Shown here piece by piece: positions 24,823-37,600 of a DNA stretch of 58,649 bases (the stretch's first letter is position 1; every line of letters starts with the position of its first letter). Source of the DNA: Flavobacteriales bacterium (GTDB lineage: Bacteria > Bacteroidota > Bacteroidia > UBA10329). Position numbers and translations under genes: made by a program. The stretch spans positions 1 through 58,649 of the forward strand of contig WGMW01000001.1 of NCBI GenBank assembly GCA_016124845.1, given 5' to 3'. The notes below the pieces were generated by a model. That model searched no databases, was not told where the DNA came from, and was given only the letters and a program-made list of their open reading frames with translations.

Positions 24823-25774
24823 ATGCTGCAAGCTTTATGATTCTCAGGTAATTCGGTTCCAGCAGGCCATTGTCGAAGTAGCCGCGTTCTTTCAACAGTC
24901 GATGCATCTTTGGCAGATTGTAGCTGGGTACGGTCATAAGCAGGTGATGCTCCGCATGATAGTTGACATGGTGCGGAGCAAACAGCATTCGCTCCACGAA
25001 ATTGGCATACGTGGTGCGCGTGTTCTTCATATTATCATTCCTGTCTGGAACAACGCTGTGCTCCGCAATGGAGCGGATGCGCAAACAGAACTGATAGGTA
25101 GTGAAATAAGCTCCGACCCAAAGCAGATAAAGCCAACCGTTTCCTGTTGCCCAAAGTGCTGCCCACATTGCAAAATTGACCACTATCGGGCCTGACATAT
25201 TTCTGAAAAAGATGAACACATGTCCAATTCCTTTTCGTTCCTCTTTCGGAATGCGTTCAACTCTTCCGCCCAAGTTGAATCGCCACAGACCAGATTGAAT
25301 CATGATCAACGCAAAAAGGATCTTGACCCCAGTAAGTCCGATCAGATCACGAAAAATCTTTCGTACAAGGCTTCTGCTTCCAGCTGGATAACCCTTGGTC
25401 AGATCAATGTCCGGGTCGATGTCCTCGCCCGTATGAGAATGGTGCGATAGGTGATAGGGGCGGTAACGCTGCACGTCCAGGAAAATGGGAAAGCCACCGA
25501 AAAGGTTTCCAGCGATCTCGTTGGCGCGTTTCGTTTTGAACTGTGCGTAATGCGAAGTGTCGTGCATGATGATGGCGCACGCCAACTGCTTTCCTCCAAA
25601 CATGAACAGCGAAAGGATAATAGTGAACGGATTTGGCCAGATTCCAGCAATTGCGAAAGCCACAACGATCCAAAACCAAGTGTCGGCTATTTCCAGCGCA
25701 GCCTTCCAATCCGATTTCTGCAAGAGCTCTCGGATCTCTTCTTTGGTCAGAAAATCGTTTGCATTAACGTTCAT
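24821..25774 (-). CDS. membrane fatty-acid desaturase family protein
   Basis: 317 residues with the three histidine boxes of membrane desaturases/hydroxylases: HDTSHYAQF near residue 70, HLSHHSHTGEDID near 108 and HVNYHAEHHLL near 273. They alternate with four to five transmembrane helices. The boxes bind a di-iron centre that uses O2 to introduce a double bond or hydroxyl into lipid chains or related hydrocarbons. The acyl substrate cannot be told from sequence. The ATG overlaps the stop of the upstream coiled-coil gene by 4 bp (ATGA), an unusual partner for a desaturase. Convergent with the TonB receptor. Confidence 0.9.
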   Translation of the reverse strand: MNVNANDFLTKEEIRELLQKSDWKAALEIADTWFWIVVAFAIAGIWPNPFTIILSLFMFGGKQLACAIIMHDTSHYAQFKTKRANEIAGNLFGGFPIFLDVQRYRPYHLSHHSHTGEDIDPDIDLTKGYPAGSRSLVRKIFRDLIGLTGVKILFALIMIQSGLWRFNLGGRVERIPKEERKGIGHVFIFFRNMSGPIVVNFAMWAALWATGNGWLYLLWVGAYFTTYQFCLRIRSIAEHSVVPDRNDNMKNTRTTYANFVERMLFAPHHVNYHAEHHLLMTVPSYNLPKMHRLLKERGYFDNGLLEPNYLRIIKLAA

Positions 25775-27321
25775 TTCGATGTCTCCAGTTCAAACACGGC
25801 TTTAGTGATGTCATCATCATCACGGAAATAATACACGCCCCCCCAATTATACACAACCTTCTTGTACACGTATGTCATGCGCTCGCGCTTCATGGTTATC
25901 TGGGTGATGGTTCTGTTCACTTCCTCAATCACTTCTTCGGTTCGTGAAACGACATTACCAGCATCCTTGATGGCAAGGCTTTTCCGTTCTTCCTCCATTT
26001 TGGCCACGGCTTCACTACGCTCGCGGTTTTGCGCCTCCGCAACAGATTTGGCCTGTGCCTGTGCCCGTTGCTCGGCTTCATAAGCCTCTTTGGCTTTTCG
26101 TTTCCGCTCCTCCTCAAACGCAGCTTCCGATGCTTCGCGCTTCTTTCGCTCTTCCTCTGCTTTGAGTGCTTCTTCCTGTCGCTTTTTTTCTTCTTCGGCC
26201 TGTTGCTGAGCAGCTAACCGTTCCTCCTCAGCTCTACGCGCATCTGCCTCGCGTTGGCGCCTTTCAATTTCCAGGCGTTCCAGTTCCGCTCTACGTTTTT
26301 CTTCCTGCGCAGATTTTTCTGCGGCCAAGCGCATTTCTTCTTCCAATTCGGCCTTCTTGCGGGCACGCTCTTCCGCATCAGCTTTTGCAGCTTCTGCGGC
26401 TTTTGCTTCCTGTTCCGCTTTTTGCTCAGCAGCTTGTCGAGCCTCTTCTTCAGCTTTCATGGCAGCAGCACGGGATTCTTCTTCGGCTTTGGCCTTTGCC
26501 AGTCGCTTTTCCTCTTCCTGTTTCGCTTCCAGAGCTTTGCGTTCATCTTCTTCGGCTTTCAGTTGGGCAAGGCGTTTCTCTTCTTCCAATTTTGCCTGCG
26601 CTTCCCGTTGTCGTTCTTCCTCCAGTTCATTCTGTCGGGCAAGCTCTTCCTGACGTTTTTTCTCGGCTTCTTCGGCCTTTTTCCGCTCTTCCTCTTCGCG
26701 CTTGCGCTGTTCTTCGGCTGCCTTGGCTTCTGCTGCTGATCGTGCTTCTTCCTCCGCTTTTGCTTTGGCCTCAGCCGCCAAGCGTGCTTCTTCAGCTGCT
26801 TTGGCCTTGGCTTCGTCATCGGTCTTTTTTACACCTTCCTTTTTGGCAGTTTCATATTCCTTGTCGAAGTTGATGAGTGCCGAACGTATGCTCTTGGTGT
26901 AATCCGTATCGTAGGTGAAAGCATCTTCCTGCGGATTATAGAACCACTTGGCCACAGGCTGGTTGAATATGACCGTATTCACGCCTTCATACTGCTCGAA
27001 TATCTCCACCTCAAAATCGAAATCGAGGTCTTCGCCTTTGATGTCTTCAGGCACATTCTTGGTGCTGATCTCAATCCGTTTGGTGATGTAACCAGGCTTT
27101 TCGAACGTGATCATGTAGTTCTTGCCGAACGCCAGTTCAGGAATCATCTTCGCCTTACCTGGTTCAAAAACCTCTTTGGACTTACCGTCCTCTGTGATCG
27201 TCACTTTCGAACCATCGAATCCACCATTGTCCACTTTGAACTTGATGAGAATGGCAAGGTTTTGTGCCAATCCCATCTGTGAAACAAAAAGGAATAGAAT
27301 CAGTAAAAATTTTCTGAACAC
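25771..27321 (-). CDS. secreted TolA-like Ala/Glu/Lys/Arg coiled-coil protein
   Basis: About 516 residues if it starts at GTG 27321 (MFRKFLLILFLFVSQMGLAQ as signal peptide); the frame is open to an ATG at 27381, but that start adds 20 non-signal residues. The N-terminal ~120 residues are a globular beta domain (VDNGGFDGSKVTITEDGKSK, NYMITFEKPGYITKRIEIS). Residues ~175-450 form one long charged helix of repeated EEERKKAEEA-type heptads. The C-terminal domain ends YVYKKVVYNWGGVYYFRDDD. The shape suggests a periplasm-spanning rod with a head at each end. It is coupled to the desaturase gene by ATGA. Function unknown. Confidence 0.75.
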   Translation of the reverse strand: MFRKFLLILFLFVSQMGLAQNLAILIKFKVDNGGFDGSKVTITEDGKSKEVFEPGKAKMIPELAFGKNYMITFEKPGYITKRIEISTKNVPEDIKGEDLDFDFEVEIFEQYEGVNTVIFNQPVAKWFYNPQEDAFTYDTDYTKSIRSALINFDKEYETAKKEGVKKTDDEAKAKAAEEARLAAEAKAKAEEEARSAAEAKAAEEQRKREEEERKKAEEAEKKRQEELARQNELEEERQREAQAKLEEEKRLAQLKAEEDERKALEAKQEEEKRLAKAKAEEESRAAAMKAEEEARQAAEQKAEQEAKAAEAAKADAEERARKKAELEEEMRLAAEKSAQEEKRRAELERLEIERRQREADARRAEEERLAAQQQAEEEKKRQEEALKAEEERKKREASEAAFEEERKRKAKEAYEAEQRAQAQAKSVAEAQNRERSEAVAKMEEERKSLAIKDAGNVVSRTEEVIEEVNRTITQITMKRERMTYVYKKVVYNWGGVYYFRDDDDITKAVFELETSK

Positions 27322-27381
27322 CGTTTGTATTGGCCAGATTATTGTCAAAGCGTTAAATTTAAAAGAAGAAATTCCTTCCAC

Positions 27382-28711: not shown

Positions 28712-29194
28712 TCATTTACGCGGTTTATACCGCATACTGATGGTCAGATCGAATTTGGCCACAGGTTCAGCCCCGTGTTTTGAAGGAACCGTTGCCACCA
28801 CTTGAATGGAAACGTTCTTCCGTTCGCCATCTTGGATGGTCTCGTTAAATGCTGACAGCACTTTCTTGCCATCTAAACAGGTGAAATAAACATCACCATC
28901 GGCACGCGTGAGGAATTCCGCATTCAGATTCTTGAACACAACAGAAACATTCTTCTTGGTTTTGGCCAAGTAATCGAATGCGATCCAAGCCCCCGTAACA
29001 TCTGCACCTGTGGCAAGCGCACCGAAATACATGCTGTTCAGGTGGTTGCGTGTTCTGCGATTCAGCGGAATACGTACCACCGTTTTGTCTTCTGTGTATT
29101 CCACCAGTTTTGCTTGCACAAAACCGATAAGACGGATTTTAAAAAGGCCAACCAGTTTGAATCTCAGGTTGGCCTTTTGAATTTCATTCAGCAT
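28712..29194 (-). CDS. DUF4442 hotdog-fold thioesterase-like protein
   Basis: 160 residues. The core RIPLNRRTRNHLNSMYFGAL, then TGADVTGAWIAFDYLAKTKK and SVVFKNLNAEFLTRADGDVY, matches the DUF4442/PaaI-like hotdog layout, with the helix following 'HLNSMYFGAL'. Proteins of this group are predicted acyl-CoA or acyl-protein thioesterases, but DUF4442 itself has no settled substrate. It lies 5 bp downstream of the PorP/SprF gene in the same direction, which may only reflect compact packing. Confidence 0.8.
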   Translation of the reverse strand: MLNEIQKANLRFKLVGLFKIRLIGFVQAKLVEYTEDKTVVRIPLNRRTRNHLNSMYFGALATGADVTGAWIAFDYLAKTKKNVSVVFKNLNAEFLTRADGDVYFTCLDGKKVLSAFNETIQDGERKNVSIQVVATVPSKHGAEPVAKFDLTISMRYKPRK

Positions 29195-29199
29195 CAGCG

Positions 29200-30687
29200 C
29201 TATTTCTTCTTCAGGTCTTCAGCGTCAATTCGGTACTTGTGTACCCATGCATCAGGAACTTCCTTCTTACGAAGTTTCTTCATCTCTTTCAGCGCTGGTT
29301 TCAGACTGTCGAATTTGCTGGAATACACGTAGAACCACTTGCGCTCGTCATTGTAAACGATGATCGCATCACGTCCTTTCGACTTCCAGATGTCGATGGC
29401 CTTCCAAGCGTTTTCCACTTTTCTGAAGGATTCGATCACTACGTAGTAACCGCTTTCAAGCTCGGTCTTCTTCATGCCCACGCTACCGTCATCTTCGCGG
29501 TAAGGAGTGATCTGCTGAAGCATGCCTTTCAACTTGTTGGTGTCAATCATTCGACTGTTCACATCTTCGATCTCTTTGTTCAATTGATCGATCTCACGCT
29601 TCAATCTATCAAGGTCGTCATCATGCTGATCAACACGCTTCTTCACGCCATCCACTTCCACTTCAAGCGAATCCATCTTAGAACCGAGAACGGTTTCAAG
29701 TGAATCCATCTTGTTGTTGAGGAGTTCGTTGTCTTGATTCATGCGCTCCATGTCATCTTCAAGTTTCTTGAACTTCTTCTTGAAACCATCCAATTTGAAA
29801 CCGAGCATGATCTCGTTTGACCAAGGAGCACCAGGATTTCCATCAATGCCATTCAACGTGAAGTCATAAGCATATCCGAATGTGAACTTGTCAGCGATCT
29901 TGAAGCCAATGGAGGCAACGGGACCAGTTTCGGCTCGCCATGTAAAGGTGGCCCAAACGATGTCCTTGTACCCGAATTTCAGGTTCGCATCATACGAAAT
30001 GTTGGTCTTGTAAGGAAGCCAACGCACCAATCCTGATGGGGCGATCAACCACTTGTCCTTGATCCAGAAATCGTAACCTGCATAGAATCGGAAGTGACGG
30101 GAAAGATCATAGTTGTAGGTATTGTCCTTCGCACGAATCTGACCAACGGTTTCAATTACATGTGGAGAAGCAACGCTGATCTCCAATCGGTTCTTCCAGT
30201 TATATCGGATACCTGCATCCATATCGAAGGATGTGCTTCCAGTATTGCCATTCGCAAGAATAGGATCGTTCGGATTCTCGACCACCGCTTTATCGAAATT
30301 GAACTGAGTATGATTAATACCCACACCCAAACCGAGAGACAATTGATGGTCGGTGGCCAATTTGATGTCGTGGGCGTAAGCCAATTTGGCGTTCACCGTT
30401 GACATGAAATTCGTTTTGTCGTAAACGATATTGGTACCGATGTTCGTGTTCTTGCCCAAAGGCGTGTGCAAACTCACCAGGCCAGTTGTAGGTGCGCCTT
30501 GCACGTTGGTCCATTGGTTTCGATAGTTGATGTAGCCTACCAGACCTTCGCTGTAACCAGCATTGGCAGGGTTCAACAGGAACCTGTTCTGTAGGTACAG
30601 GCTGGACAGACGGGTCTGTTGGGCGGTTGCATCCCAAACTTGGCCAAGAAGCCCGATCATCAATAACGTAACGTATATCTTTCTCAT
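29200..30687 (-). CDS. PorP/SprF-family outer-membrane protein with coiled coil and SPOR-like tail
   Basis: 495 residues. Signal peptide, then SSLYLQNRFLLNPANAGYSE and NYRNQWTNVQGAPTTGLVSL, the PorP/SprF family start. A beta-barrel portion runs to ~residue 300. Residues ~305-400 are a coiled coil (DDMERMNQDNELLNNKMDSL, DRLKREIDQLNKEIEDVN). The C-terminal ~80 residues (YYVVIESFRKVENAWKAIDI, DERKWFYVYSSKFDSLKPAL) resemble a SPOR-type peptidoglycan-binding repeat. SprF-like proteins are needed for T9SS export or anchoring of SprB-type adhesins; the gene follows two T9SS substrates here. The extra coil plus SPOR-like end suggests a link from barrel to cell wall. Confidence 0.85.
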   Translation of the reverse strand: MRKIYVTLLMIGLLGQVWDATAQQTRLSSLYLQNRFLLNPANAGYSEGLVGYINYRNQWTNVQGAPTTGLVSLHTPLGKNTNIGTNIVYDKTNFMSTVNAKLAYAHDIKLATDHQLSLGLGVGINHTQFNFDKAVVENPNDPILANGNTGSTSFDMDAGIRYNWKNRLEISVASPHVIETVGQIRAKDNTYNYDLSRHFRFYAGYDFWIKDKWLIAPSGLVRWLPYKTNISYDANLKFGYKDIVWATFTWRAETGPVASIGFKIADKFTFGYAYDFTLNGIDGNPGAPWSNEIMLGFKLDGFKKKFKKLEDDMERMNQDNELLNNKMDSLETVLGSKMDSLEVEVDGVKKRVDQHDDDLDRLKREIDQLNKEIEDVNSRMIDTNKLKGMLQQITPYREDDGSVGMKKTELESGYYVVIESFRKVENAWKAIDIWKSKGRDAIIVYNDERKWFYVYSSKFDSLKPALKEMKKLRKKEVPDAWVHKYRIDAEDLKKK

Positions 30688-30714
30688 TCGAGTAGGATTT
30701 CGTGTTTAGGTCTT

Positions 30715-32754
30715 TTATTTCAAAATACTGACTGCGCCATCAAAGCGATCATCGCGTCCGTCACATTCAATAATGTAGTAGTAAGTGCCGTCAGGAAGCT
30801 TGTCTCCCGCAAAGTCGGTTCCTTTCCAATCGTTCTTGTAAGCGTTGGAATTGTAAACCTCAACACCCCATCTGTTGTACACTTTCAGAAGACAATCCGA
30901 ATAGCTGTCGATGTTTCCGACATAGAAACGGTCGTTTGTACCGTCACCATTTGGTGTGAAGAGGTTCACTGGCTTCAAGTTGTAATCCATCAGCACTTTC
31001 ACATTCACAGTATCCTGAGATTCGCAACCATGAAAGTCAGTTCCAACCACGATGTAGGTGATATCTTCTGAAGGATTGATGCTCGTTGGCATATCTGTGG
31101 TTGAATTGTCCAGATAGGTTTCTGGAGACCATACATAGCTGTTAGCACCCGATACCCAAAGCGGAACATCCTCTCCCAAACTAATGGTGGTGTCATTGCT
31201 CGATGAAAGCACAGGAAGCAGCCAACTCGTCACATCGATGGATGTCTGTCCTTTACATCCATGCTCGTCTGTTATCAGCACTTCATAGGTGTCTGTTGTA
31301 TCTGCCTTGATGCTCTGGGTGGTTTCGCCTGTACTCCAAAGTGTTGGAGTTCCAACGGGATCAACTGTCAGGTTCACCGAACCGCCATAACAGAAGTAGA
31401 GGTCGCCATCCGCTGTTATAGCTGGTTCAGGCAGCGCCCATACGTTCACGTAATGCTGAACAGTATCTCTACATCCATCAGTTGTATAAGCAACCATGGT
31501 CACTAAGAAGCTGTCTGGCTGAATGTAGTTGTGGAACGGGTTGATACCACCATCCGTGTTCTGGTCGCCCAGATCCCAATAGTAGTTCTGAATGGTTGAA
31601 CCTTTTGGATCGGTGATGTTTGTGAAATTGGTCGTGTTTCCAATGCATACTTCGGTAAACGTGAAGTCAGCTGTTGGTGTAGGATGAACCGTTACCGTTT
31701 GGGTCAACGTATCGGCACAGCCGAATGACGTTGTTCCGATGAGACGAACTGAAGCTGCTCCTGCACTGCTAAAGGCAAATGCTGGATTTTCGTCTGTTGA
31801 AGTTCCTTCCTGTCCGAATGTCCAGTTGTATGAAATGGTGCCGACCACGTTCTGAGAAAGGTTGGTGAACTCAACCAATGTGTTCTGACAAGCGTTGTCA
31901 AATGTGAACAGTGCAATCGGGTAGGGGGCGATGGTAACCAGTTGGAAGGTGTCGTTCACACATCCCTGATCGGAAGTTACACGCAGACCGATCTGGTAGT
32001 TTCCATCCGAAATGAACTGATTGGTGATGGAAGCTCCCGAAGCATCATCAAAGAGTCCATTTCCATTCAGTTCCCAACCGTAACTCGTTATTTGACCTGA
32101 GGAAACGGTGCTGATGGCCGTCAATTCGGTCTCATCACCCAAACAAACATTTGCGGTTGAGAATTCCACGGTAGGCATTGGGTCAACAGAGACATTCTTA
32201 TTGGTGGTTGATTGACAACCTTGGTCAGAGGTCACTTGAAGGCCAACCACATAAGAACCAGCAGTAACGAAATCATGGGTTGTAGAACTTCCGCTCGCGT
32301 TATCGTAAACACCGTTGTTGTCAAGGTCCCATTCCCAACTGACAATTGATCCAGAAACAATGGTGGACTGATCTACAAACTGAGTGGCGGTTCCTTCACA
32401 GACATCAGCAGCTGAAAAACTTGCGGTTGGAACAGGGTTAACCGTGATCAACTTGTAAACTCCTTGTGGTGCATCCATGTCGGTCACAATTTGAAGACCT
32501 ACGTTGAACACGCCAGGGCTGTTGAACGTGTAGTTGATGGTTGGACCGAATGCATCGTCAAATTGTCCATCTGCATCGAGGTCCCAGTTCCAGTTGGTGA
32601 TGGTGGCACCGCCCGAAACCACGGCAGTACTGGTAAAGGTTGTTTGTGAACCTTCACATACCAGTGTGGTCGAATAGTCGACCACATCAACGGTGGCGTT
32701 GGCATTGAACGCGATCAGCGTCAGTATTGCAAACAGGATTCTCATCTTTTTCAT
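30715..32754 (-). CDS. PKD-domain protein with gliding-motility-type (T9SS type B) C-terminus
   Basis: 679 residues. Signal peptide MRILFAILTLIAFNANA, then about five PKD-like repeats of ~85 residues, e.g. SIVSWEWDLDNNGVYDNASG, TITNWNWDLDADGQFDDAFG and QNYYWDLGDQNTDGGINPFH. An Ig-like region (LYFCYGGSVNLTVDPVGTPT) comes next. The C-terminal ~90 residues, NLFTPNGDGTNDRFYV to KLPDGTYYYIIECDGRDD, form the CHU_C / type B T9SS sorting domain. It is a surface-exposed repeat protein, probably an adhesin or a matrix component. It sits 13 bp after the giant adhesin gene and 27 bp before the PorP/SprF gene, as one operon. Confidence 0.9.
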   Translation of the reverse strand: MKKMRILFAILTLIAFNANATVDVVDYSTTLVCEGSQTTFTSTAVVSGGATITNWNWDLDADGQFDDAFGPTINYTFNSPGVFNVGLQIVTDMDAPQGVYKLITVNPVPTASFSAADVCEGTATQFVDQSTIVSGSIVSWEWDLDNNGVYDNASGSSTTHDFVTAGSYVVGLQVTSDQGCQSTTNKNVSVDPMPTVEFSTANVCLGDETELTAISTVSSGQITSYGWELNGNGLFDDASGASITNQFISDGNYQIGLRVTSDQGCVNDTFQLVTIAPYPIALFTFDNACQNTLVEFTNLSQNVVGTISYNWTFGQEGTSTDENPAFAFSSAGAASVRLIGTTSFGCADTLTQTVTVHPTPTADFTFTEVCIGNTTNFTNITDPKGSTIQNYYWDLGDQNTDGGINPFHNYIQPDSFLVTMVAYTTDGCRDTVQHYVNVWALPEPAITADGDLYFCYGGSVNLTVDPVGTPTLWSTGETTQSIKADTTDTYEVLITDEHGCKGQTSIDVTSWLLPVLSSSNDTTISLGEDVPLWVSGANSYVWSPETYLDNSTTDMPTSINPSEDITYIVVGTDFHGCESQDTVNVKVLMDYNLKPVNLFTPNGDGTNDRFYVGNIDSYSDCLLKVYNRWGVEVYNSNAYKNDWKGTDFAGDKLPDGTYYYIIECDGRDDRFDGAVSILK

Positions 32755-32767
32755 CCTTCTGTATTTC

Positions 32768-35700
32768 TTATCTGATTACATCAAATCTTAGCACGGTCTG
32801 TTCGTTCTCGCTGACCAAGCGCAGGTAGTAGATACCATTTGAAAGACCGTTCACATCGATTGATATTCGGCCCGTCTTATCCAATCCATTTACGGTTGTG
32901 CTTTTCAAAATCTGACCCGTAGTTGAGATCACATCCACATACAGTTTGGCTGTGATGCTTGAACTTGGCTGAACAAACAGTTCTGAATTTGCTGGGTTCG
33001 GGTAGATGGCGAAATTGAACGCTTCGGCATCGGCAATTCCAGTCTGAAGCGTATTGATGCTGACCGTGTAAACATCCTCGCCACAGTCATTGGTCACGGT
33101 CAGAGTAACCGTGTAAGTACCATGATGGTCGTAAACGTGTACTGGAGATTCGGCTGTTGATGTGGAATCGTCTCCGAACGTCCACATGTAAGAACTTCCA
33201 TTTGCAGAAGTGTTGCTGAACAGAATCGCAGTGCCACTTACTGTGTAATCGAAATTGGCAACTGGGAGCAACGTTGAGGCTTCAACATCAACCGTGGTAG
33301 ATTGCGGACAACCATTCACATCGGTGACAGAAACCGTATAAGTGCCGTTGGTAAGGTTCACATAATCGCCATTCGTCTGAAGGCTACCACCATTGAGGAA
33401 GTAGTTGTAAGAAGGAGTTCCTCCCTGCGCTGTCACATGGATCTCGCCAGCATATTGCCCTTCACATGCCACACCAACTACTGTATCTACTGTAATGCTG
33501 ATGAGTTCAGGACTCACCAACGTAACCGTGTCCGTATCGGTGCAACCGTTAGAGTCCATCGCTACGATCAAGTGGTTTCCTCCATTCAGCCCGCTCAGGA
33601 TTTGATTTGATTGGAAGGTTGCTCCTCCGTTGGACGAGTAGGTGTAGCCTGGAGTTCCTCCCGTTACCATTACCGTAACCGTTCCGCTCGATTGGTTCGG
33701 ACAAGCTGGGTTGTTGTTCAGCGTTCCCGTAATGTTTACGGCAGTAGTAGGCTCAGTAACATTCACGGCAACGCTGTCAACACATCCATTCTGGTCTTGT
33801 GCATACAGCGTGTAGAAACCTGCGGCATAACCGCCAAACGTATTGCCCGTCACGAAACTCGCGTTGTCGTCCGAATACAGATATGTTGGCGTACCGCCAT
33901 TTCCCACAAGCATCACTTCACCAGATGATTCGCCCAAACAGGCTGCATTGGTAATATTTGCCGTAAGAACGAATGCAGCATTTGGTTGCGAAACGATAAC
34001 TCCTTCAGAGGCTGTGCAACCATTGGCGTCACGAACAACGGCAAGGTAGATTCCACTTGAGAGGTCTGTAAAAGTTCCTCCATTTGCGAAGAAGTTGCTA
34101 CCGCCATCAACCGAGTACTCATAACTTGCAGTGCCGCCATCGGCAATGATCTCGATTTCCCCTGTCATCTCACCAAAGCACGCCACAGGGCTTGAATTGG
34201 TCTCAACCGTCAGTTCTGTCGGCTCTGTCAGCGTTTCACTAAGGTTATCTGTACAACCGTTGGCATCTCTAACAGTCAAGGTGTAAGAACCAGCACCAAG
34301 GCCATCAAACACACCAGAACCTTGGAAACTCACGCCATCCATGCTGTACTGGTATGGAGATGTTCCAGATGCAGCAGCTACTTCAATCGAGCCACTTGCC
34401 TGTCCGTTACACAGCGCATTTTCACTATTGATGAGCGAAAGCATCAAAATGCCTGGCTCTGTCAACGTAACGTGAATGGTATCGGTACAACCGTTCGCGT
34501 CCATTGTCCCTACAATGTAATTGCCAGCCGCAAGGTTTTCGAACATATCGGCTACATCATACGTGCCGCCATCCAAGTTGTAGCCGTATGGCGAAACGCC
34601 ACCAGTTGAAGCTACGCTGATGCTTCCTGAGTTGTCTCCGTTACACAGAAGGTCGGAAGACGCAACCAGACCAAGTTGAAGTATGGGTGGTTCGGATAGA
34701 ATGATGGTCGTGTCGAAAACACAGCTGTGCGCATCCACGATCTCAATATCATGAGACCCTGCAGCCAACCCACTGAAAAGACCGCTCGATTGCGGTGTTC
34801 CAGCATCGACCGCGTACGTGTACGGAGCAGTTCCACCAGTTCCAACTACTGAGATCTCTCCTGAGTTGTCACCGTTGCAAAGGTTGTTCTGCATTCCCAA
34901 AAGGTTGATTCCCAGCGTGTCGGCAGGTTGATCGACCGTGGTCGAAACCGTGAAGGAACAACCGTTGGCATCTACGGTGGTCACATCATAATTCCCAGCA
35001 GATAGCCCCGTGAAGGTCAATCCCGATTGTGGCGTGCCGTTGTTCAGGCTCAACGCCAAAGGAGGCGTAGGACTGCCAAGAATTACTGCTGTTATTGAAC
35101 CCGTCATCTCGCCATAGCAGGCAACATCTGTAGGTGTCAAAGTGAAATCGGGCAGGTCGTAGATCTCAATCTGTTGCGTCAACGAATTCACACAGAACTG
35201 AGAGCTTGTAACGGTCAATGTCACATCATACGTTCCGAAAGTGCTGTAGGCATGATTCACATTGGAAAGCGTGCTGCTGTTTCCATCACCAAGATCCCAA
35301 TTGTAAGTTCCTGATGAAGATGTGTTGACGAAATTGGCTTGCGTGCCTTCGCATACGTTTGAGAATGTGAAGTCCACATTTGGAAGACTGTTCACTGTGA
35401 CATCGGCCGTATGCGTGTCAATACATCCGTTATTGTTGGTTGTGGTGAGAACAACCGTATAGGTTCCACCAGTTGCGTAAGTGTTTGACGGGTTGGCATC
35501 CGTTGAGGTATTTCCATCGCCAAAATCCCAAGCATAGGTCAATGTCCCAGCACCTGTGCTCAGGTTGGTGAAGACCGTTGCATCGCCTTCACATGCAGTG
35601 GTAGCAGAGAATAGGGCAGTAGGTGAGTCAGCCACATTGACAGAGGTTGTGGTCACATCCTCACAGCCATTGTCCGAAGTAACCGTAAGTGTTACGGTGT

Positions 35701-37600
35701 ACGTACCGCTTACTGCATACGTATTACTTGGGTCTTGGTCTGTGGAAGTGTTTCCGTCACCGAAATCCCAAGCGTAGGTCAACGTTCCAGCATCAATGGT
35801 CGAGGTGTTGGTGAATGCGGTTGCATTGCCTTCGCAAGCTCCAACATAGGTGAATGAGGCCGTAGGAACAGGAGTTACATGCACCGTTTGTGTGGAAGTG
35901 CTTGAACATCCGTTGGCAGAAACAACCGTCAACGCCACATCATACATGCCCGTATCGGCAAATACATGTATCGGGTCCACGAGTGTTATCTGACCGCTGC
36001 CATCATCCATGTTCCAGGTCCAACTGCTGATGGAATAACCTGAAGTGATGGTAGATTCGTCTGTAAAGAAAACAGATTCGCCTGCGCAGGCAGGAGAAAA
36101 GCTGTAATCTGCAACAGGTGTTGCATCAACCGTTACCGTAAACGAGCATGAGTTGGTGTTGCCGGCCACATCCTCAATTCCCCAGTCTTGCGTGGTCGTT
36201 CCAATTGGGAACGTACTGCCAGAAGTAAGTCCTGTTGCATCGGTTTGCGAAATGGTATAGCCACAATTGTCTGAACCTGTTACTGCTGCATAGGTCACAG
36301 TTGCACCACTTGCATCAAGCGAACACACGGTAATGTCTGAAGGACAGGTGATGCTCGGAGTTTGATTATCTTCAACCGTTACCGTTGCCGTACAGCTCGA
36401 AACATTGCTGTTCACGTCCGTTATTGTCAAAGTGACCGTGTTTGTACCGATGTCCGAACAGTTGAAAGATGTCTGGTCCAGCACCTTGGTAGCAATCGCA
36501 CAGTTGTCGGTAGAACCATTGTTGATGTCACTCACCAAAAGTGTGGCACTACCTGAACCGTCCAACACCAAGGTCTTGTCTTGACACACGGCATTGGCAG
36601 CCGTGGCATCAACAACCGTTACCGTGGAAGTACAATTGTCTGTATTTCCGGCTGGGTCTTCTGCCGTAAGGGTTACCGTATTGGGGCCAACATCTCCACA
36701 ATCAAATTGTGTAATGTCAAGTGAAAGGGTCACGGAGCAGTTGTCAGAACTTCCATTATCAATATAGTAGGTGAAGATCGAAACGTCCCCCAGACCATCC
36801 AGATCTATTGAAATATTCTTACAGACAGCAACAGGGGCTTCATTGTCCTCAACTGTAACGGTAGATGTACAGGTGGAAGATCCCCCATTATTGTCAGTAA
36901 TGGTCAGAGTAACTGTATTGGCACCTAAGTTCGAACAATCAAATGAACTTACATCCAGACCAAATGATGCCACACCGTATGCATTATCAAACGAGCCGTT
37001 ATCAACATCCGGACGTTGCAGCACTTTAGAGTTGAACACAAAGTCAGAAGTTGCACTTGTATTGTTCCGTCCTCCAGCGTATGGGTCTCCGTCATTTTTC
37101 TGAAGAGAGAAAGGAGCCGCACTGCCATCTGCAATAACCACGGTATACTGGCTTCCAGAAACCACATCGACCGTTTCTTTCAGCACGAATTCTGTTGAAG
37201 TTCCTGCATTGAAGGAGATCGGATTGGAATATGTCATTTGAGTGAGAAGTGTACCACCGAGTCCCTCACCCGAATAAATACTGACAGTTGCTGTGGTGGT
37301 AGGGGCATAGGCTGAACTGAAAGTGAGTCCTACGCTGTGCAGAACACCATCGGTACCAGCGGTAAATGACTGCCACGCCATGTTGCCAGTGAACGATCCG
37401 GCCTGAACCGATTGGCTTACATCCACCTGTGGTGTGGTACTCCCGATGGCAAAACTGTAGTTTCCTGTTCCATCAAGCTGAACAGTAAGGTCTTGGCAAG
37501 TGGCCGTTGGGCCATTGGGTATTGGAGGAACCGCTGGATTCAACGAAAATCCGTCCGTAAACACACCAAGTAATATGAGGGTAGGTAAAAGTCTTTTCAT
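32768..37600 (-). CDS. giant surface adhesin with PKD and SprB repeats, T9SS type A
   Basis: 1610 residues. Signal peptide ~1-19. The N-terminal region (~25-230) carries CQDLTVQLDGTGNYSF. Four Cys-rich repeats follow (~25-430, e.g. VCQDKTLVLDGSGSATLLVS, TVTVEDNEAPVAVC). A HYR-like unit (~435-500) precedes about four PKD domains (~500-830, e.g. LTYAWDFGDGNTSTD). Eight or so SprB repeats (~840-1450) carry the motif CNGDNSGSISVASTGGVSPY...DANGCTDT. One more PKD follows (~1455-1520). The type A sorting domain (YPNPANSELFVQ, GLSNGIYYLRLVSENE) closes the protein. It is likely secreted by T9SS and used in adhesion or gliding. First gene of the adhesin-PKD-SprF operon. Confidence 0.9.
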   Translation of the reverse strand: MKRLLPTLILLGVFTDGFSLNPAVPPIPNGPTATCQDLTVQLDGTGNYSFAIGSTTPQVDVSQSVQAGSFTGNMAWQSFTAGTDGVLHSVGLTFSSAYAPTTTATVSIYSGEGLGGTLLTQMTYSNPISFNAGTSTEFVLKETVDVVSGSQYTVVIADGSAAPFSLQKNDGDPYAGGRNNTSATSDFVFNSKVLQRPDVDNGSFDNAYGVASFGLDVSSFDCSNLGANTVTLTITDNNGGSSTCTSTVTVEDNEAPVAVCKNISIDLDGLGDVSIFTYYIDNGSSDNCSVTLSLDITQFDCGDVGPNTVTLTAEDPAGNTDNCTSTVTVVDATAANAVCQDKTLVLDGSGSATLLVSDINNGSTDNCAIATKVLDQTSFNCSDIGTNTVTLTITDVNSNVSSCTATVTVEDNQTPSITCPSDITVCSLDASGATVTYAAVTGSDNCGYTISQTDATGLTSGSTFPIGTTTQDWGIEDVAGNTNSCSFTVTVDATPVADYSFSPACAGESVFFTDESTITSGYSISSWTWNMDDGSGQITLVDPIHVFADTGMYDVALTVVSANGCSSTSTQTVHVTPVPTASFTYVGACEGNATAFTNTSTIDAGTLTYAWDFGDGNTSTDQDPSNTYAVSGTYTVTLTVTSDNGCEDVTTTSVNVADSPTALFSATTACEGDATVFTNLSTGAGTLTYAWDFGDGNTSTDANPSNTYATGGTYTVVLTTTNNNGCIDTHTADVTVNSLPNVDFTFSNVCEGTQANFVNTSSSGTYNWDLGDGNSSTLSNVNHAYSTFGTYDVTLTVTSSQFCVNSLTQQIEIYDLPDFTLTPTDVACYGEMTGSITAVILGSPTPPLALSLNNGTPQSGLTFTGLSAGNYDVTTVDANGCSFTVSTTVDQPADTLGINLLGMQNNLCNGDNSGEISVVGTGGTAPYTYAVDAGTPQSSGLFSGLAAGSHDIEIVDAHSCVFDTTIILSEPPILQLGLVASSDLLCNGDNSGSISVASTGGVSPYGYNLDGGTYDVADMFENLAAGNYIVGTMDANGCTDTIHVTLTEPGILMLSLINSENALCNGQASGSIEVAAASGTSPYQYSMDGVSFQGSGVFDGLGAGSYTLTVRDANGCTDNLSETLTEPTELTVETNSSPVACFGEMTGEIEIIADGGTASYEYSVDGGSNFFANGGTFTDLSSGIYLAVVRDANGCTASEGVIVSQPNAAFVLTANITNAACLGESSGEVMLVGNGGTPTYLYSDDNASFVTGNTFGGYAAGFYTLYAQDQNGCVDSVAVNVTEPTTAVNITGTLNNNPACPNQSSGTVTVMVTGGTPGYTYSSNGGATFQSNQILSGLNGGNHLIVAMDSNGCTDTDTVTLVSPELISITVDTVVGVACEGQYAGEIHVTAQGGTPSYNYFLNGGSLQTNGDYVNLTNGTYTVSVTDVNGCPQSTTVDVEASTLLPVANFDYTVSGTAILFSNTSANGSSYMWTFGDDSTSTAESPVHVYDHHGTYTVTLTVTNDCGEDVYTVSINTLQTGIADAEAFNFAIYPNPANSELFVQPSSSITAKLYVDVISTTGQILKSTTVNGLDKTGRISIDVNGLSNGIYYLRLVSENEQTVLRFDVIR

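Follow-up and report, generated by a model that had tools for sequence, protein, structure and literature searches.

A PorP/SprF barrel joined to a coiled coil and a SPOR domain: a probable T9SS type B shuttle with a built-in wall anchor in a Flavobacteriales bacterium

We analyzed a stretch of 58,649 nucleotides from a Flavobacteriales bacterium (contig WGMW01000001.1, assembly GCA_016124845.1; hereafter the window). Its minus strand carries a run of three genes (Table 1). The gene for an adhesin with a T9SS type A sorting domain comes first, followed after 13 bp by the gene for a PKD protein with a type B sorting domain and, after a further 27 bp, by the gene for a PorP/SprF protein with a SPOR end. 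The 1610-aa adhesin contains SprB repeats together with PKD and HYR domains, and its type A sorting domain was matched by PF18962 (E 1.1e-13) and TIGR04183 (32.8 bits, cut-off 23). The 679-aa protein contains PKD domains, and its type B sorting domain was matched by PF13585 (91.1, cut-off 27) and TIGR04131 (52.4, cut-off 35 bits). The first-pass annotation had placed two T9SS substrates, one of type A and one of type B, ahead of the PorP/SprF gene, and these scores above the cut-offs agree with it.

Table 1 Features of the three-gene run, in positions of the window.
Feature	Position	Strand	Basis
PorP/SprF, coiled coil and SPOR fusion, 495 aa	29200..30687	(-)	ORF and domain profile matches
PorP/SprF outer-membrane barrel, aa 21-297	29797..30627	(-)	profile matches
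Coiled-coil linker, aa 300-392, probably periplasmic	29512..29790	(-)	heptad test, coiled-coil-type matches
SPOR domain, aa 412-482	29242..29454	(-)	PF05036
PKD-repeat protein with T9SS type B sorting domain, 679 aa, probable cargo of the fusion	30715..32754	(-)	
Type B CTD of the 679-aa protein	30724..30966	(-)	
SprB-repeat/PKD/HYR adhesin with T9SS type A sorting domain, 1610 aa	32768..37600	(-)	
Type A CTD of the 1610-aa adhesin, aa 1532-1606	32783..33007	(-)	

The barrel of the 495-aa protein was found to be complete. TIGR03519 matched residues 1-298 with 203.6 bits (cut-off 90.55), covering positions 1-291 of the 292 in the profile, and PF11751 matched residues 21-297 with a score of 189.4 (cut-off 22.3). 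In residues 300-392, the best heptad hydrophobic bias was equalled in none of 500 shuffles, and a low-confidence predicted model placed helices at 302-348 and 357-377. PF05036 matched residues 412-482 with a score of 26.3 against the gathering cut-off of 21 (E 1e-5), and the score rose to 30.7 bits when the last 90 residues were scanned alone. The coiled coil and SPOR-like end described earlier were thus both recovered. Among the best 25 of 28 matches in the 495-aa protein, no TPR, PD40 propeller, CarboxypepD_reg or OmpA domain was observed; the protein was not classed as PorE, though it may work in a PorE-like manner. The genome of the window has 11 PorP/SprF matches and 8 SPOR matches, and the two coincide in the 495-aa protein only. 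With a SPOR in 1 of the 11, the extension departs from the typical PorP/SprF protein, as had been claimed. The tail is real, lies above chance and is no general feature of PorP/SprF proteins.

Subsequently, the spread of the fusion was examined. We found at least 61 distinct PorP-SPOR fusions in at least 47 of 395 genomes, under 18 family codes; the loci were chosen among the best matches listed and long frames, and hence the number of genomes is a lower bound. The fusion frame was open in six genus-mates, in two of which it is cut at contig ends, and no match was found in G007 and G008, two of the nine genus members. In comparisons with four genus-mates, conservation of the SPOR end exceeded that of the linker every time, once by 1 point; it exceeded that of the barrel in three cases and fell 4 points short of it in the fourth. 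dS was saturated or uncomputable in 9 of 12 comparisons. In a tree, 57 of 60 fusions fell within one supported set of 66 rows. The set includes nine non-SPOR rows, among them six PorPs of the family f37 whose SPOR lies in the neighboring gene. A single clade of the 60 fusions and those nine rows was not rejected (p-AU 0.942). Named genome contigs yielded three loci when scanned, and L049 among them is a barrel match without a SPOR tail; a scan of viral contigs gave no relative. PorP-SPOR proteins form an old family. The two genus-mates without a match might hint at an error of assembly or annotation, or at gene decay; however, the fusion recurs across separate assemblies with open frames in six genus-mates, it spans 18 family codes and both of its ends are conserved, so that such an origin is hardly credible.

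We compared the gene neighborhoods of fused and unfused PorP genes using local domain models. Genes were counted as directly adjacent when they were consecutive same-strand ORFs no more than 600 bp apart; ORFs below 130 aa without a domain match were skipped. L171, L176, L178 and L255 had identical ends and were dropped from the fused-locus survey. The unfused control consisted of 56 ORFs, namely 54 from nine genomes and two (L217 and L218) adjoining SPOR loci; one PorP each from G004, G053 and G093 was not included, and the 64 unfused loci of the fused-locus survey were kept out, since some had been chosen for a SPOR. The nine control genomes belong to f1, f4, f34 and f46 and the two loci to f18 and f37, so the control and the fusions, with their 18 codes, are not matched by lineage.

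A type B gene lay directly upstream in 59 of 60 decidable fusions, as against 18 of 56 unfused PorP genes. At L206 an extra gene separates the type B gene from the fusion, and L066 stops at a contig end. A PorE-like gene lay directly downstream in none of 57 decidable fusions and in 9 of 55 unfused PorP genes. When only loci linked to a type B gene were considered, the corresponding values were 0/30 and 5/17 (Fisher p 0.004, for loci that are not independent); because the loci are related by descent, such p values are indicative at most. Furthermore, Pfam found no OmpA, SPOR or PD40 in ten downstream neighbors on the same strand that had no match to the local models, a scan covering neighbors of at least 300 aa within 600 bp; four more downstream neighbors, two with 403 aa and two with 517 aa, lie farther away than that. 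The absence of PorE was scored in the adjacent gene, and a PorE encoded elsewhere could still work with the fusion.

The wall-binding modules at related loci were also compared. In f37, an unfused PorP was followed by a TPR-PD40-CarboxypepD_reg-SPOR protein in all six loci fetched (one such neighbor was called by Pfam and five by the local PorE-body model). PorP-OmpA fusions were observed in G073 and G078. The genome of the window itself has, at L053, the ordinary order of type B gene, PorP and PorE with an OmpA end, so that this OmpA anchor type and the SPOR type of the 495-aa protein occur in one genome. OmpA and SPOR substitute for each other, both as fusions to PorP and on PorE-type proteins encoded separately. 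This interchange supports, by comparison, the model of PorE as an anchor.

The SPOR glycan-site glutamine is preferred in SPOR domains but does not strictly define them. We located its position in the tails by motif spacing. All 62 fused tails have Val or Ile at the position matching the key glutamine Q270 of RlpA (Val417 in the 495-aa protein), as do all nine tails on PorE-body proteins. The R309-equivalent position was Tyr in 57 of the 62 fused tails. The glutamine of the first strand was kept, as judged by eye, in three of the four other SPOR stretches of the same genome. The Trp at the place of DamX W416, likewise assigned by spacing, was kept in all 56 aligned fused tails, and the place of RlpA F274 held Phe in 57 of 62 and Tyr in 5.

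The assignment as SPOR rests on curated profile scores, with PF05036 matching all 17 tails scanned alone, and not on structure models. A full-length prediction from a three-row alignment had a mean pLDDT of 35.6, and its barrel was unusable. The model of the tail was of moderate quality (pLDDT 59.1, pTM 0.54); its order fits the RNP-like beta-alpha-beta-beta-alpha-beta arrangement, with a short last strand. A Foldseek search with this model gave nothing below E 0.001; the top row was the SPOR domain of CwlC, at a weak E of 0.11, and that of DedD ranked fifth. In a second structure comparison, the SPOR domain of RlpA was found with Z 6.0 and an rmsd of 2.8 over 69 residues, amid many tied alpha-beta rows. 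A sequence search of solved structures gave the CwlC SPOR domain 1x60 with E 1.6e-4, ten other rows having E 0.2 to 0.9.

The lost glutamine and the Tyr at the R309 position would be accounted for if the tail had kept the RNP-like fold, had lost glycan binding and now served as a docking domain for a periplasmic partner, for example GldJ, the PorK/N ring or a protein of the wall. In the model outlined in excerpts of PMC9143113, PorP and PorK are associated. Yet the same tail replaces the peptidoglycan-binding OmpA end on PorE-type proteins, the Trp and Phe described above are conserved, and most SPOR-glycan contacts are made by the main chain, according to the available text of PMC6895207. A docking role thus appears rather unlikely.

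Taken together, these findings suggest that the 495-aa protein is probably a type B shuttle of the T9SS whose own chain includes a PorE-like wall anchor, keeping its type B cargo in place, the binding to the wall being predicted. The domains, the gene order, the conservation and the interchange of anchor modules are observed; the shuttle role, the choice of cargo and a static fate would follow by analogy with homologues in the literature. SprA is encoded in the genome of the window, and the 679-aa protein would be exported by Sec and then translocated via SprA. The PorP/SprF barrel would pick up its type B CTD and remain bound as a surface mount. An even-stranded barrel would leave the C-terminus on the periplasmic side, where the coiled coil could bridge the gap and the SPOR domain could fasten the complex to peptidoglycan; in this way the exported protein is probably tethered to the wall. 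With one chain doing the job of PorP and PorE, the cargo is expected to be static and not moved by the gliding motor.

A linked type B CTD gene directly upstream of PorP/SprF is common but not universal. PorP/SprF carries the type B protein of such a linked gene, as described in excerpts of PMC9143113 and PMC12618676, and accordingly the 679-aa protein is the expected cargo and not the 1610-aa adhesin. The type A adhesin is expected to have PorV as its carrier; it would be exported on its own and may dock onto the type B protein. The first-pass annotation had proposed that the fusion could tie the adhesin to peptidoglycan: the role as a wall anchor is backed by the related neighborhoods, but the cargo it named should be exchanged for the type B protein.

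The type of glycan bound could also set the location. Known SPOR domains bind denuded glycans that are enriched at the septum (PMC6895207, excerpts), and the OmpA domain of PorE has been found with a bound stem peptide instead (PMC7192894, excerpts). Binding of stem-less glycans by the tail would direct shuttle and cargo to the division site or new pole, a special case compatible with the anchored shuttle. The presence of both anchor types in one genome points in this direction, but the glutamine and the R309-type residue are missing from the tail, and we regard such placement as unlikely. More broadly, and quite doubtfully, Bacteroidota might decide what becomes of a secreted adhesin, and where it is displayed, by exchanging a wall-reading module on its shuttle: none for cargo moved by the gliding motor, OmpA reading stem peptides for general static display, and SPOR with an aromatic glycan face of its own for another wall state, for instance at the septum or new pole. 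If so, one cell could sort several type B adhesins to separate zones by the anchor alone. That PorE decides between a mobile and a static fate of type B proteins is a postulate in the accessible parts of PMC9143113 and PMC12618676. An anchor within the chain makes this question testable by deleting or swapping one domain, which leaves in place any free-standing lipoprotein on which secretion itself may depend.

Among the closest known systems is the PorE-PorP-PG1035 complex of Porphyromonas gingivalis; type B proteins linked to PorE are proposed to be static (PMC9143113 and PMC12618676, both in part). Shared features are a PorP-family barrel, a type B cargo, which is predicted for the 495-aa protein, and a periplasmic wall-binding module proposed as the anchor; however, P. 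gingivalis has its anchor on a lipoprotein of its own, composed of TPR, propeller, CRD and OmpA domains (PMC9143113, in part), whereas here the coiled coil and the SPOR domain lie on the barrel chain. As in SprB-SprF of Flavobacterium johnsoniae, the shuttle gene is directly downstream of a type B adhesin gene. SprF has no adjoining PorE-like gene and its cargo travels on helical tracks, and a SPOR end on SprF is not mentioned in the available portions of PMC9143113 and PMC12618676. No description of PorP/SprF joined with SPOR was found in the open-licence literature, and an earlier mention elsewhere is possible. The tail is a SPOR domain by curated score, as are those of FtsN, DamX and RlpA, which have the glycan-site glutamine (PMC6895207, in part); the tail of the 495-aa protein has Val417 and is carried by a probable outer-membrane secretion shuttle. 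Outer-membrane proteins of the OmpA/OprF type likewise combine a barrel with a periplasmic peptidoglycan-binding end, but the 495-aa protein differs from them in its barrel family, in the fold of its anchor and in a barrel that would handle secreted cargo.

Three closely spaced genes on the minus strand of the window encode products of 1610, 679, and 495 aa. The 495-aa protein contains a complete PorP/SprF barrel (TIGR03519, 203.6 bits against a cut-off of 90.55), a charged helix with a strong heptad pattern that was equalled by none of 500 shuffles, and a SPOR domain (PF05036, 26.3 bits against a cut-off of 21; 30.7 bits when the last 90 residues were scanned alone). The curated scores and the heptad test confirmed the first-pass annotation, which had described a PorP/SprF protein with a coiled coil and a SPOR-like end after two T9SS substrate genes. 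The same genome encodes SprA and has 11 PorP/SprF matches and 51 type B sorting domain (CTD) matches, some of the latter below the cut-off; a SPOR match coincides with a PorP/SprF match only once. A DUF4442 gene directly follows the fusion gene; neighbours of 159-160 aa occupy this position in the related loci L064-L067, with none in L069. A 536-aa protein with about 300 charged residues rich in Ala, Glu, and Lys gave no match in the Pfam scan, and ORFs of similar size were found at the equivalent position in L064, L066, and L067.

Coordinates and features of the genes discussed
Feature	Location	Strand	Size	Remarks
Type A adhesin	window	minus	1610 aa	SprB repeats, PKD and HYR domains, type A sorting domain
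PKD protein	window	minus	679 aa	type B sorting domain
PorP-SPOR fusion	29200-30687	minus	495 aa	barrel, heptad-patterned helix, SPOR
DUF4442 gene	28712-29194	minus
Charged protein	25771-27381	minus	536 aa
PorE-type protein, SPOR replacing OmpA end	L218:5252-7234; L228, L235, L237, L241, L243			directly after unfused PorP; six f37 genomes
PorP/SprF barrel with C-terminal OmpA	L202:5287-7584		765 aa
PorP/SprF barrel with C-terminal OmpA	L203:1-2972		990 aa	cut at contig end
PorE-type protein with SPOR and OmpA	L247:5087-7876		929 aa	SPOR at 152-213, OmpA C-terminal
PorP fusion with two SPOR stretches	L201:4298-6460		720 aa	type B gene before it
Second PorP	L246:1763-3475; L249:5735-7729; L253:5781-7346			directly after PorP-SPOR gene

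The tail is present in seven of the nine genomes of the genus, the window's own counted; no tail match was obtained in the other two (G007 and G008). Within the class, a tail match at E ≤1e-6 was observed in at least 134 of 395 genomes, other SPOR proteins included. The fetched loci held 61 distinct PorP-SPOR fusions from 47 genomes and 18 family codes, so that at least 47 of the 395 genomes carry one. Scanned one by one, the 17 tails used in the model alignment all matched Pfam SPOR. When ten other fusions were scanned full-length, five passed the SPOR cut-off, L071 was slightly below it, and L064, L070, L080, and L215 gave no SPOR row at E 0.001. The linkers range from 70 to 372 residues, with TPRs in those of L204 and L205.

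A same-strand type B gene lies directly upstream of 59 of the 60 decidable fusions, whereas this was the case for 18 of the 56 unfused PorP ORFs used as the control; in the sole exception, L206, one gene intervenes. A PorE-type gene directly downstream was found for none of 57 decidable fusions, compared with 9 of 55 unfused PorPs. Because the local OmpA model had been built from the window's genome, ten larger downstream neighbours of fusions from other families were also scanned with Pfam, and none was PorE-like. Four of the ten were SprB-repeat proteins (L230, L234, and L239 of f20, and L244 of f6), that of L230 ending in a type A sorting domain over the cut-off; accordingly, a second gene order exists in which an SprB-repeat adhesin is found beside the type B/PorP-SPOR pair. 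The SprB-repeat protein is upstream of the pair in the window but directly downstream of PorP-SPOR in f20 and f6. The window order (type A - type B - PorP-SPOR) was observed for 17 of the 59 type B-linked fusions, mainly in f1, f4, and f46; in this count, 14 loci offered no visible gene further upstream, and the type A frame was cut or short in some others. In three loci, the PorP-SPOR gene is directly followed by a second PorP with a charged linker and an unassigned C-terminal domain, judged by eye to be similar to a carboxypeptidase-regulatory-like fold; the two such tails scanned (L246 and L249) gave no Pfam row.

SPOR and OmpA substitute for one another, fused or separate, as indicated by the following loci. 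At L053, in the window's own genome, type B and PorP genes are followed by a PorE with PD40, CarboxypepD_reg, and OmpA. In f37, the third protein is TPR/PD40/CarboxypepD_reg/SPOR, assigned by Pfam in L218 and by the local model in five more loci. In G073 (L202), a PorP-OmpA fusion follows a type B gene, and in G078 (L203) such a fusion occupies the whole short contig. Finally, a PorE-type protein in G374 (L247) carries both domains and is preceded by type B and PorP genes. Family f14 also has proteins of 406-420 aa (L081, L224, and L226) in which local models place SPOR close to the N-terminus and give an OmpA end; no PorP adjoins them within the fetched stretch.

Of the 60 fusions in a 125-barrel tree, 57 fell within one supported set of 66 rows; the remaining nine rows of the set are PorPs, six from f37 and three from f20, the latter with long tails of a different kind. 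A tree constrained to keep the 60 fusions with these nine had a higher likelihood than the unconstrained quick tree. The simplest history on this quick tree would be one ancient fusion that was split later in f37. The PorP-OmpA fusions fall elsewhere, in positions that are unsure because their branches are long.

In published accounts, PorP/SprF shuttles take over the type B protein at the SprA translocon and retain it, and type B proteins are proposed to be static with PorE and mobile without it (PMC9143113, PMC12618676). PorE is bound by PorP in P. gingivalis, and a crystal structure of the PorE OmpA end contains a stem peptide (PMC7192894). By analogy with these homologues, the shuttle and anchor roles may extend to the window protein, and the PorP-SPOR fusion would be the PorP and PorE device within a single chain. 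The 495-aa protein is best read as a shuttle of the PorP/SprF family whose own chain includes a PorE-like anchor. The earlier suggestion that the fusion could tie the exported adhesin to peptidoglycan was partly supported, the expected cargo being the type B protein instead.

The glycan site of the tail was compared with that of the RlpA SPOR domain, whose contacts with denuded glycan are mostly main-chain, with Q270 and an arginine patch in addition (PMC6895207). Positions were matched by motif spacing, without structure alignment, and anchored on F421 (F274 in RlpA), a place held by Phe in 57 and Tyr in 5 of 62 fused tails. By this spacing, Tyr453 stands at the place of R309, with Tyr in 57 of the 62, and the place of Q270, Val417 in the window fusion, has Val or Ile in all 62 and in all nine tails on PorE-body proteins. 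The replacement of Q270 and R309 was counted against the wall-anchor reading. W481, equivalent to DamX W416 by spacing and strand order, is conserved in all 56 aligned tails. Judged from sequence, the putative glycan site in the tail is a SPOR variant of its own, with an aromatic character.
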